Translations under genes and position numbers: made by a program
Origin: Rhizobium rhododendri
GTDB taxonomy: Bacteria > Pseudomonadota > Alphaproteobacteria > Rhizobiales > Rhizobiaceae
Assembly (NCBI RefSeq): GCF_007000325.2
Contig: NZ_CP117267.1
Location: 2,356,001 to 2,420,000 of the forward strand
Reading direction: 5' to 3'
Length of the DNA stretch: 64,000 nt
Notes under the pieces: generated by a model
Database searches by the model: none
Told to the model about the DNA's origin: nothing
The model's input: only the letters and a program-made list of their open reading frames with translations
Part shown: positions 15,967 to 19,409 of the stretch, in pieces
Layout: every line of letters starts with the position of its first letter
Position numbering within the stretch: the stretch's first letter is position 1

Positions 15967-16185
15967 TCAGGAAGCAGCCTTGATTTCGGAGTGGCTTTTC
16001 AGGACACGCCCGCCGTCTTCCTGTTCGATGAGATAAGCTGGCTCTTCGGCGCTGGCCTTGCGCTTGATCACCGACCCCTCGATAGTTTTCTCCACATCGT
16101 CGGTGAAACTCTCCGTCACCTTGCCGGTGCCCGTTCCCTTGCCCCACTTCCACTCGACCTTGGACCCCACGCGAAATTTGTGCAT
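15967..16185 (-). CDS. Small DUF2945 / hypervirulence-associated Tudor-like protein
   Basis: A 72-residue protein starting MHKFRVGSKVEWKWGKGTG, the pattern of DUF2945 proteins, with a small beta-barrel resembling a Tudor domain. Their role is unknown. GAGGAG lies 7 bases before the ATG; nine further upstream codons are open but unsupported. It lies 64 bp downstream of the ruvB stop on the same strand and converges with sqdC. Confidence 0.85.
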   Translation of the reverse strand: MHKFRVGSKVEWKWGKGTGTGKVTESFTDDVEKTIEGSVIKRKASAEEPAYLIEQEDGGRVLKSHSEIKAAS

Positions 16186-16249
16186 TGCGATGCTCCTCTC
16201 GAAGCCTCCCAAATGCAGATGCCGGGCTCGTTGTTCCCTGAACGGGCGA

Positions 16250-17290
16250 TCACTCCTCTTCCTGGAACAGCCGGAACTGCGCCGCTTCCAGGTCTTTCGG
16301 CGGCTGCAGATCCAGATGCCGCCAGGCGGTCGGTGTCAGCACGCGGCCACGGGGCGTGCGCTGGATGAAACCCTGCTGGATCATGTAGGGCTCAATGATA
16401 TCCTCGATGGCATCGCGCGGCTCGGACAAGCCGGCTGCGATGGTCTCGATACCCACCGGTCCGCCACCGAAGTTAACGGCGATCATGTTGAGGTAGCGCT
16501 TGTCGAGCTGATCGAGCCCGAGATTATCGACGAGCAGCCGCGTCAGCGCCTCGTCGGCAATCTGCCGCGTGACTGATTCCGCCCGCGCCACCTCGGCGAA
16601 ATCGCGAACGCGGCGCAAAAGCCGGCCTGCGATACGCGGTGTCCCGCGCGCGCGGCGGGCAATCTCCCGCGCACCGTCATCGGCAATCGGCAGACCCATC
16701 AGCCTTGCGCCACGCCGGACGATCAGTTCCAGCTCCTCGACCGTGTAGAAGTTGAGCCGCACGGGGATGCCAAACCGGTCGCGCAACGGTGTCGTCAGCA
16801 GACCGAGCCGAGTGGTGGCGGCGACCAGCGTGAATTTTGCCAGGTCGATTTTCACGGAACGCGCCGCTGGGCCCTCGCCGATGATCAGGTCCAGCTGGAA
16901 ATCCTCCATCGCCGGATAGAGGATTTCCTCGACTGCAGGGCTCAGCCTGTGAATTTCGTCGATGAACAGGACATCGCGGTCCTCGAGATTGGTCAGAAGT
17001 GCTGCCAGGTCGCCGGCCTTGGCAATGACCGGCCCTGAAGTCGAGCGGAAATTGACGCCGAGCTCCTTGGCCATGATCTGCGCCAGCGTCGTCTTGCCGA
17101 GACCGGGCGGACCGACGAACAGCACGTGATCCAGCGCCTCGCCCCGGTTCTTCGCCGCCTCGATGAAAACTTTCAGGTTGGCGCGGGCATCCGCCTGGCC
17201 CGTGAACTCGTCGAGCGACTGCGGCCGCAGCGTCGTATCCAGGTCTTCGCCACGCTTCTCGGGCGTGATCAGGCGGGCGGGTTCGGTCAT
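16250..17290 (-). CDS. ruvB: Holliday junction branch migration ATPase RuvB
   Basis: AAA+ motor that, with RuvA, drives branch migration. The 346 residues have Walker A GPPGLGKT at 60-67, Walker [10 protein letters not shown], sensor ATTRLG, arginine finger region LRDRFG and a C-terminal winged helix ([15 protein letters not shown]). Its ATG overlaps the stop of the PIN toxin gene by 4 bases (ATGA), so its translation is probably coupled to the inserted toxin gene rather than to ruvA. A GGA lies about 8 bases before the ATG, giving a modest site of its own. Confidence 0.97.
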
Positions 17291-17685
17291 GCGAGCAGTT
17301 CCATTCCCTCGATCGTCTTGGCGGCGCGCTCGTCGAATGTGAAGGTTGCGCTACACCCGGCATTGCGATTGCGGACGGCAATGAACGCGTCTGCAAATTC
17401 AGCCTGCGAGCGGCTCATTACGTCAAGAACCTCTTCGACAGCTTCTTCGTCTTCCAGAATTATGTCTTCCGAATCCAGCAGATCCGCAATTCCGTCAGCG
17501 ATCTGCTCTCTCGTGAGCTTGATACGCTGTCGCAAAAACCAAGCGAATTCCATAAGCGTGATACAGCTTATATATCCGGGACCTATTTCACCGAGACGCG
17601 CAAACAGTTCAGCGACCTTAGCGCTTTGCGCCACATCGTCTTTCAAGAAGACGCGAAGCAAGATGTTTGTATCCAGACCGATCAT
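17287..17685 (-). CDS. PIN-domain RNase toxin (VapC-like)
   Basis: The 132-residue PIN domain carries the four acidic residues of the Mg2+ site: Asp5 (MIGLDTN), Glu46 (LMEF), Asp99 (FADAFI) and Asp118 (TFDERAA). Known VapC toxins cleave tRNA or rRNA. It follows its antitoxin gene with a 4-base ATGA overlap and runs into ruvB with another. Base use is poorer in G+C than the flanking ruv genes (two 60-base blocks counted by hand: 52% each; a ruvB block: 60%), which fits acquisition by transfer. Activity is inferred from the intact catalytic set. Confidence 0.9.
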
Positions 17686-17942
17686 TGCGTTCCAACAATA
17701 TGGTCGAAAATAGCCTCGCCAACGGCACGTTTCATTTCGTCCACGGGGATCGGAAGCCGATCCGGGTCGTAGAACTTGCCCAGAAGATCGACAGCACGTT
17801 TGTTTTTAGCCTTGATAAAGATTTTGCCATCCTGGTGGACATAGCGAATTTTGTCCCCGGGCTTCAAATTCAGTATGTCACGAACTTCTGATGGCACGGT
17901 AGTTTGCCCCTTTGATGTTATCGTTCCATAGTAAATCTTCAT
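17682..17942 (-). CDS. AbrB/MazE/SpoVT-family antitoxin
   Basis: An 86-residue protein with an N-terminal swapped-hairpin AbrB domain (TITSKGQTTVPSEVRDIL, LKPGDKIRY) and a C-terminal helix expected to occupy the toxin (DPDRLPIPVDEMKRAV). Such antitoxins bind DNA and repress their own operon. I choose ATG 17942 because AAGGAG is 9 bases upstream; an ATG 3 codons earlier touches that site directly. A long open frame extends upstream but runs antisense-like through ruvA in another frame and is not used. It forms a module with the PIN toxin, wedged between ruvA and ruvB. Confidence 0.88.
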   Translation of the reverse strand: MKIYYGTITSKGQTTVPSEVRDILNLKPGDKIRYVHQDGKIFIKAKNKRAVDLLGKFYDPDRLPIPVDEMKRAVGEAIFDHIVGTQ

Positions 17943-17966
17943 TGGCAGCATCTCCTTACTTTCCAG

Positions 17967-17995
17967 CGATAGCAAGGAGTTTCGGGGGCCGCAAG
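17967..17995 (-). promoter_or_regulatory. Candidate internal promoter of the toxin-antitoxin pair
   Basis: On the minus strand CTTGCG (17990-17995) and CTATCG (17967-17972) are exactly 17 bases apart, near the rhizobial CTTGAC-N17-CTATAT pattern. It lies between the ruvA stop and the antitoxin start and could also serve ruvB. Confidence 0.45.
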
Positions 17996-18001
17996 GAATT
18001 C

Positions 18002-18616
18002 TCACTTCGACAACTCCCTCAGCCCCAGCCTGATGAGCTTGGCGCTGTCGGCACCCTCGCCCGCCGTCTTCATGGCGGCGGCAACGGCGTTGGCGGCCTG
18101 GTCGCGCGAGTAACCGAGATTGGTAAGGGCCGACACGGCATCCGACACAGGCGCTGCAGCAACGCCCTCGCCGATCTCCTGCTTGAGGCCCATGTTCAGC
18201 GCCTCGCCTGCAAACGCCGGAGCCTTGTTCTTCAATTCCAGTACCATCCGCATTGCAACCTTCGGGCCGACACCGGGTGCTCGCGAAATGACGGTCTTGT
18301 CCTGCAGGGCAATGGCGTTGGCAAGCTCCGAGGTCGTCAGCGTCGACAGCACCGCCAGCGCCACCTTCGCCCCGACGCCCTGGACGCTCTGCAGCAGAAT
18401 GAACCACTCCCGCTCCAGCACTGTGAGGAAACCAAACAGCTTCAGCTGGTCTTCGCGCACATAGGTTTCGATGAACAGCACGCAGGCCTCGCCGACGCCG
18501 CCTAACCTTGCCAGCGTCCGGCTGGAGCAATAGGCGACATAGCAAACGCCGTGAACATCGACGAGCGCGTAGTCCTCGCCGATTTCCTCGATGGTGCCTT
18601 TGAGTTTGCCGATCAT
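18002..18616 (-). CDS. ruvA: Holliday junction DNA helicase subunit RuvA
   Basis: Binds four-way junctions and loads RuvB. The 204 residues show the OB-fold N terminus ([26 protein letters not shown] cut at its usual borders), two helix-hairpin-helix stretches ([18 protein letters not shown] and [16 protein letters not shown]) and the C-terminal RuvB-binding UBA-like domain ([16 protein letters not shown]). The stop lies 59 bp before the inserted antitoxin gene. ruvC is 42 bp upstream in the same direction. Confidence 0.97.
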
Positions 18617-18658
18617 GGGATATCCGTCAGGTTTTGGTGGTGGTGACGTATCAAAACG

Positions 18659-19174
18659 CTATCCGGCGGCCAGCAAGGCCTGTCGCATGCGGTTGCCACC
18701 ACGATTATGCGCATGGCATATGGCGATGGCCAGCGCATCGGCGGCATCGTTGCCCTTGAACTCCGCCTTCGGCATCAGGATCTTCAGCATCATGTGGATC
18801 TGCTGCTTTTCGCCGTGGCCGACCCCGATGACCGCTTTCTTGACCGCGTTCGGAGCATATTCGGCGACCGCGAGCCCCGCCCGTGCCGGCACCAGCATGG
18901 CGATGCCGCGTGCCTGGCCGAGCTTGAGCGTTGCGACAGCATCCTTGTTAACGAAAGTCTGCTCCACCGCGGCTTCATGCGGCTGGTGAGTGTGCACCAC
19001 ATCAGACAGCCCGTCATGCAGCTGGCAGAGCCGCGACGCCAGGTCCATGTCGCCATCGGACAGCACTGTGCCCGATGCGACAAACCGCAGGGAGTTTCCG
19101 AGCACGTCGATGATGCCCCAGCCCATGCGGCGCAGGCCTGGATCTATGCCGATGATACGAATCGTGTTCTGCAT
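18659..19174 (-). CDS. ruvC: Crossover junction endodeoxyribonuclease RuvC
   Basis: Dimeric resolvase cutting Holliday junctions. The 171 residues have the RNase H-like acidic set: Asp11 (IIGIDPGL), Glu71 (AAVEQTFV), and Asp143/Asp146 in [13 protein letters not shown]. The start [13 protein letters not shown] agrees with homologues; 26 upstream open codons are unlikely to be translated. It is the first gene of the ruvC-ruvA-(toxin-antitoxin)-ruvB cluster; yebC, often just upstream, lies about 2.7 kb away beyond the chemoreceptor gene. Confidence 0.96.
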
Positions 19175-19409
19175 GGTCGTCAACCTACCGTTCATGGCAA
19201 CCATGTGCCAGAAAAATGTGAACAAAGCGAAAACATCAAGATAATTCATCACGCGTCTTTACGTGCGATTAAGCCATTTTGCCGACTCTTCCCGGATATT
19301 GCCTTCGCAGGTGGTTCGGCTGCGGCCGCACCCCAGTTTACATCTTGACAACTTTTTCGCTGCACATCGTTTCGCGCTATCGACGAAACGAGAGTCTAGA
19401 GGTTACGCC

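Follow-up and report, generated by a model that had tools for sequence, protein, structure and literature searches.

The persistence of chromosomal toxin–antitoxin (TA) modules is a long-standing question, and the ruv operon of Rhizobium rhododendri raises it in a particular form: what keeps a TA pair between ruvA and ruvB, and does ruvB depend on the toxin gene that ends on its start codon? The initial annotation of this DNA had proposed that RuvB is translated by ribosomes leaving the toxin gene, and that the module could be retained because its loss would upset RuvB. The window, by which we mean the whole stretch of 64,000 nucleotides that was analysed, belongs to the same GTDB species as genome G064 and contains the following features.

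18659–19174, minus strand: ruvC, upstream of ruvA and on the same strand (Pfam search)
18002–18616, minus strand: ruvA (Pfam and NCBIfam)
17682–17942, minus strand: AbrB/MazE-type antitoxin gene, 86 aa, start ATG at 17940–17942
17682–17685, minus strand: ATGA, antitoxin stop and toxin start
17287–17685, minus strand: PIN-domain (VapC-type) toxin gene, 132 aa, its stop overlapping the ruvB start
17299–17304, minus strand: ATGGAA, toxin codons 128–129, 9–14 bases before the ruvB ATG, with GGA at 10–12
17287–17290, minus strand: ATGA, toxin stop and ruvB start
16250–17290, minus strand: ruvB (Pfam and NCBIfam)

Pfam, NCBIfam and the open reading frames (ORFs) bear out the annotated arrangement, a VapBC-type pair within the ruv operon with two ATGA overlaps and a PIN toxin that has all four acidic residues (D5, E46, D99 and D118). 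The low G+C content that had been noted was also recovered: in 300-base windows it is 0.477–0.510 (48–51%) inside the module versus 0.58–0.66 (58–66%) inside ruvA and ruvB, a foreign-looking composition. The window toxin matches the Pfam PIN family (PF01850) at 2e-11, and the antitoxin matches MazE_antitoxin (PF04014) at 1.4e-9 and the NCBIfam AbrB domain (TIGR01439) at 8e-10. When the toxin is aligned with 35 homologues, D5, D99 and D118 do not vary and E46 has a conservation of at least 90%; across 76 ORFs from ruvA–ruvB junctions, two of which are not toxins, D5 is present in 67, E46 in 74, D99 in 72 and D118 in 73. In two junction toxins (L087 and L133), the third acidic residue, the Asp of FAD, is replaced by Gly, and these proteins may be inactive. 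An AlphaFold model of the window toxin (mean pLDDT 96.6) has PcrIIC1 and VapC20 as its top fold matches in the PDB, with E values of 1e-4 to 8e-4 and TM scores of only 0.45–0.49, followed by other VapC and PIN proteins. PcrIIC1, whose structure was solved in complex with a Cas9 (8wmm), is also the sole PDB sequence match of the junction toxin profile at E 0.001 (E 4e-7). Neither protein of the pair matches a PADLOC defence family at E 0.01. For type I modules, the median dN/dS is 0.101 for the toxin (37 pairs) and 0.083 for the antitoxin (38 pairs), compared with 0.068 for ruvA and 0.036 for ruvB, values that indicate that both type I proteins are under purifying selection. The window pair probably acts as an ordinary VapBC system, with an RNase toxin and an autoregulating antitoxin. 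A plasmid or phage origin for the window module was rejected: no DNA match was found in 72,556 plasmid records and no protein match in 50,697 phage records. Protein relatives occur in 40 plasmid records, every one below 60% identity.

The distribution of the module was followed through the genus, with one genome per species, and through samples of the family and order. A toxin search matched 81 of the 148 genus genomes, and the best 30 loci, down to 34% identity, all sit between ruvA and ruvB (30/30 of those listed). This placement, together with type I dN/dS values of about 0.1 (toxin) and 0.08 (antitoxin), argues that the module is not there by chance. RuvA and RuvB are present in 147 of the 148 genomes, and subtraction of their coordinates sorted these junctions by gap length. 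Thirty-eight junctions, all of them read, are filled, 36 with a single module and two (G071 and G114) with modules in tandem, and together they hold five toxin types. Three gaps of 231–265 bp (G072, G137 and G138) keep the C-terminal half of the toxin, and 34 gaps of 150–200 bp, a class set by length alone, all keep the toxin tail. The other 72 gaps are shorter; among the 35 of these that were read (37 lie outside the reading), five have a toxin tail and 30 have leaders that lack ATGGAA, which we call native. The toxin is therefore deleted or truncated, with its tail left behind, in 42 of the 147 genus genomes.

The occupation extends to other genera. Of 131 family genomes (109 GTDB genera), 130 yielded RuvB and 129 yielded RuvA. 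Outside the genus, 126 family genomes have both genes, and junctions were fetched for the 60 with a gap of about 180 bp or more; G169, G172 and G270, in which ruvA and ruvB are apart, were left out of the reading. The initial annotation had suggested looking for AbrB–PIN pairs between ruvA and ruvB of other Rhizobiaceae, and such a search found a PIN toxin whose stop overlaps the ruvB start by 4 bases in 36 of the 126 genomes, spanning 34 GTDB genera as counted among the junctions listed. The fetched junctions include 43 with a gap of at least 650 bp, seven of which differ: six (L111, L118, L120, L130, L131 and L143) hold an AbrB–PIN pair that was not called as overlapping ruvB, and the seventh (L129) holds different ORFs. 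Genus and family combined, 81 of the loci read have a gap of at least 650 bp; 74 of these carry a PIN toxin with the 4-base overlap, and the 74 toxins fall into 33 clusters at 60% identity. On a toxin tree built with the tail cut off, in which 27 database proteins were labelled free-standing solely because they lack the tail, five to six changes between ruv and other toxins are needed and strong branches force three. With so few changes, a small number of dockings may account for many of the 33 clusters and for most lineages. In the order sample of 111 genomes, 107 of them outside the family, RuvB was found in 109 and RuvA in 110; ATG-start ORFs of at least 70 aa were tested in 19 of the longer junctions from non-family genomes, and one of these 19 carries the module (L273, toxin ending GMELLA). 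Membrane-protein-like ORFs of about 140–175 aa lie in the ruvA–ruvB junctions of four loci from other genera, three of them with gaps below 650 bp (L104, L136 and L140) and one with a long gap (L129); a Pfam search of the L129 ORF gave no match. Another junction (L285, genome G378) has an AbrB antitoxin ORF of 86 aa alone, with no toxin found behind it.

These surveys bear on whether the pair is ancestral or recent, a choice that the initial annotation had posed, and both parts apply: the site is occupied family-wide, and its content turns over fast, with at least 29 changes of state. Since 30 of the genus genomes read have no toxin tail, ancestral occupation is not extended to those genomes. 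A recent one-off insertion is rejected, the site being filled in many genera.

The turnover can be seen by comparing the window with its sister species G145.

17308–17994, minus strand: tract exchanged between the window and G145, with flanks ~95% identical

Identity is 94.7–94.9% across 19.9 kb of flanks and 100% for RuvB, whereas the alignment breaks at window positions 17307 and 17995 and the toxins are 34% identical. Breakpoints were read in 15 chosen pairs of relatives in different states. In 14 pairs, the ruvA-side break falls between 11 bases before and 9 bases after the ruvA stop; in the remaining pair, which compares a module with a fossil (a toxin remnant), it falls 58 bases after the stop. 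The ruvB-side break lies one base before ruvB where a module or remnant is compared with a native leader, and 14–58 bases before ruvB in module–module or module–fossil comparisons. On a 69-row tree of ruvA plus ruvB, counted by a quick method, a minimum of 29 changes is required to account for the eight junction states (mean of 41.6 after shuffling; lowest conceivable number 7), and one clade interleaves modI, modII and native states. Between the modules of the two tandem loci lie approximately the first 40 bases of ruvB and then approximately the last 16–20 bases of ruvA, the kind of scar that recombination of one occupied ruv allele with another would be expected to leave. In another genus, L120 (G208) has an intact-looking AbrB–PIN pair ending KMELLA followed by a toxin remnant ending GMELLR before ruvB, an arrangement that suggests stacked modules.

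Identical placement in the 34 family genera counted among the junctions listed might instead reflect targeted insertion, in which site-specific integration or transposition puts modules at the ruvB start codon. We regard this as very improbable, because the one-module junctions listed have no room for a recombinase gene, the tandem scar holds the ruvA and ruvB ends that recombination between alleles predicts, and the module-to-module breaks lie 14–58 bases upstream of ruvB, within a shared tail.

That tail is the most constant part of the cassettes. The 76 junction ORFs comprise 74 toxins and two others; 70 of the 76 have an ME[LF]Lx ending, and in 73 the Met codon is followed by GAA or GAG, which places GGA 10–12 bases before ruvB. 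Within one clade, the last 21 bases are 98% identical between toxins that average 38% protein identity, as measured over 48 pairs. ATGGAA is found in all 34 genus genomes with a 150–200 bp gap and in all 42 genus toxin remnants, and is absent from all 30 native leaders read in the genus. Across the 34 fossils, which are related to one another and so do not represent 34 independent events, conservation is 0.96 over the last 23 bases versus 0.72 over the 39 bases before them. The codon after ATGGAA reads Pro or Arg rather than Leu in 27 of these 34, so the toxin protein is not what is being conserved there. As judged from these alignments, it is the last ~23 bases of the toxin gene, rather than the toxin, that are retained. 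The fossils also carry a small ORF, ATG GAA CNN CTG ACA TGA, that ends on the ruvB start, and some native leaders lack one. We considered that this ORF itself might be under selection, which would give the same pattern as conservation of a ribosome-binding segment.

The tail was also sought outside the junction. A MELL ending occurs in none of the 19 toxins recovered from 20 non-ruv loci of the genus, and Glu follows Met in none of the eight plasmid homologues read (of 40 plasmid records). The tail is present in 42 of 76 database homologues, considered as protein sequences alone; at 55% identity or more it occurs in 37 of 41, and below that in 5 of 35. A scan of 84,980 species genomes for GGAATGGAACTNCTNNCATGA returned 101 stretches with 103 matches, of which 92 are at a ruv junction; 88 matches lie exactly at the ruvB start, one lies 3 bases off, two belong to the first modules in tandem loci, one sits at the edge of a stretch and 11 are elsewhere.

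Part of this conservation has a structural basis in intact toxins, given that MEL forms the last β-strand of the predicted toxin fold (AlphaFold model) and that free-standing toxin relatives share a GM-x-L tail. These two points would also suit an ordinary hitch-hiking VapBC system, for which the ruvA–ruvB junction is merely a tolerated insertion place and the tail is kept for the fold, with no functional tie to ruvB; other AbrB–PIN modules of the genus likewise closely precede ORFs resembling ureC, clpS and ilvH. We nevertheless consider hitch-hiking unlikely, because it leaves unexplained why the tail is conserved as DNA in dead remnants in which one codon changes meaning, and why a Glu codon follows Met in nearly every junction ORF but in none of the plasmid homologues read. 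With regard to those other modules, the PIN toxins of L146–L149 (G122, G030, G035 and G011; AbrB match in three of the four) end 7–9 bases upstream of the next ORF, which we take to be that for the urease alpha subunit (ureC). At L152, L161, L162, L165 and L163, PIN genes (AbrB match in four of the five) lie just upstream of another ORF, presumably clpS-like at the first four and ilvH-like at L163.

Does ruvB, then, depend on the toxin? The overlap of its start codon with the toxin stop, present in the window and in the 74 long junctions described above, is what strict translational coupling would require, with RuvB made only by ribosomes that finish the toxin and the module kept because its loss lowers RuvB. 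An independent ribosome site for ruvB was looked for, and a GGA-type Shine–Dalgarno sequence was found in the filled, fossil and native states alike. Its mean duplex energy is −4.56 kcal/mol in 38 filled, −4.68 kcal/mol in 13 fossil and −3.69 kcal/mol in 19 native junctions, the native set including one fossil (L056). Because the Shine–Dalgarno sequence is about equally strong with or without the toxin, the initial proposal, that RuvB translation strictly requires ribosomes coming off the toxin gene, is unsupported. The accompanying proposal, in its strong form, that the module is retained because its loss would upset RuvB, fares no better, as ruvB persists in the 42 genus genomes that have lost the toxin and in the 30 read with native leaders. 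Strict coupling thus seems highly unlikely, whereas some coupling through the overlap is possible. By itself, a 4-base overlap does not set ruvB apart: among 19 non-ruv modules, two (L151 and L156) have a mechanically called ORF (141 and 103 aa, respectively) that begins in such an overlap.

Taken together, the sequence comparisons make it likely that the ruvA–ruvB junction is a family-wide docking site for VapBC-type cassettes, which are swapped by homologous recombination and in which the toxin tail doubles as the ribosome-binding segment of ruvB. The window pair would be the current occupant of this site. The alignments show very different cassettes in one place, mostly with the toxin stop overlapping the ruvB start; between close relatives one cassette takes the place of another, the breaks falling at the ruvA stop and within the final bases of the toxin, and cassettes are also lost by internal deletions that spare the toxin's last ~23 bases. 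Exchange would be driven by homologous recombination in the common ruvA and ruvB flanks and in the toxin tail. The tail, ATGGAA plus eight bases, would serve as the ribosome-binding segment of ruvB, so that each cassette would bring or adopt a compatible plug. Ribosomes ending the toxin may aid initiation on ruvB, and ruvB would survive toxin loss because of its independent Shine–Dalgarno sequence. What was toxin coding sequence appears to have become leader sequence for a core repair gene.

The pair is probably expressed from a promoter of its own and from the ruv promoter, which may be damage-inducible. Two candidate control elements lie in the window.

17952–17979, minus strand: inverted repeat CTCCTTGCT...AGTAAGGAG with one mismatch, in the ruvA–antitoxin leader; candidate operator
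19220–19234, minus strand: GTTTTCGCTTTGTTC, upstream of ruvC, differing at one base from the LexA box GTTC-N7-GTTC

The second arm of the repeat includes the antitoxin Shine–Dalgarno sequence, AAGGAG, nine bases 5′ of its ATG. Inverted repeats of differing sequence, which may be operators, occur near several module leaders, and two of the 14 loci listed have none. A scan of positions 17200–19400 gave two promoter-like sites (0.7 expected) and one terminator-like site (1.9 expected), none of them in the ruvA–antitoxin leader, and Rfam families gave zero matches across window positions 16000–19400. GTTC-N7-GTTC is the LexA box of alphaproteobacteria, and ruvCAB promoters of that class are reported to have putative LexA sites (PMC3323433). 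Upstream of ruvC, the box is exact in none of 35 loci and has one mismatch in 28, which would be compatible with damage induction of the ruv operon.

In gene order, 4-base overlap, four acidic residues and candidate palindromic operator, the window pair resembles known type II VapBC modules with an AbrB/MazE-fold antitoxin and a PIN toxin. It differs from them in its fixed docking inside ruvCAB, the exchange of divergent cassettes and the retention of the toxin tail before ruvB. TA genes also occur in SOS operons; in dinB-yafNOP of Escherichia coli, for example, a TA pair shares an operon with a DNA-repair gene. Here, by contrast, the match to the LexA box is close but imperfect, and the start codon of the repair gene overlaps the toxin stop. 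Among the papers found by our literature searches for a TA pair in ruvCAB, one was seen to describe such a pair (PMC11406972): in Rhizobium leguminosarum 3841, the vapBC pair RL3987–RL3988 lies immediately upstream of ruvA (RL3989), with ruvB as RL3990, and all four genes were scored by insertion sequencing as required for root attachment. That pair is likewise an AbrB–PIN pair beside ruv genes, but by gene order it fits the ruvC–ruvA module rather than the ruvA–ruvB one. In the text of PMC11406972 that was examined, the word 'polar' occurs only in other senses and swapping is not treated; phenotypes of vapBC insertions beside ruvAB, such as those reported there, may reflect polar effects on RuvAB. 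The ruvCAB operon of Vibrio is interrupted by one or two extra genes, which the portion of PMC3323433 consulted does not describe as TA modules. Docking in ruvCAB, cassette exchange and a retained tail were not described in the literature found by these searches. The site presents many natural states in close relatives, namely five module types in one genus, tandem, truncated, tail-only and native, and so allows hitch-hiking, operon dependence and selection on the module to be separated.

The other junction of the operon lies between ruvC and ruvA.

18617–18658, minus strand: short ruvC–ruvA gap, ending CCTGACGGATATCCC, which weakly resembles the leader after the second-module toxin

By subtraction of RuvC coordinates, this gap is of module length in 109 of the 147 genus genomes, intermediate in 3 and short in 35. 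Among loci with ORFs listed, the long gaps mostly hold another AbrB–PIN pair (Pfam was run on two of these toxins and two antitoxins), decayed in L045 and L047. The window has no second module in this position, and across the genus the two ruv junctions are occupied independently (Fisher p = 0.52). A broader and more tentative reading, which we hold to be possible but doubtful, is that both ruvCAB junctions are standing ports for interchangeable TA cassettes, in which the toxin's last codons form a plug that now belongs to the host operon, diversifying pressure drives turnover and the plug outlasts the toxin; such pressure could come from phages that attack recombination or from a need to guard Holliday-junction processing. 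Short ruvC–ruvA gaps in four loci (L061, L066, L069 and L075) retain end pieces of the second-module toxin, such as GAAACCCATCCCTGACGGAC, and the pattern of a tail left behind thus appears at this junction too.
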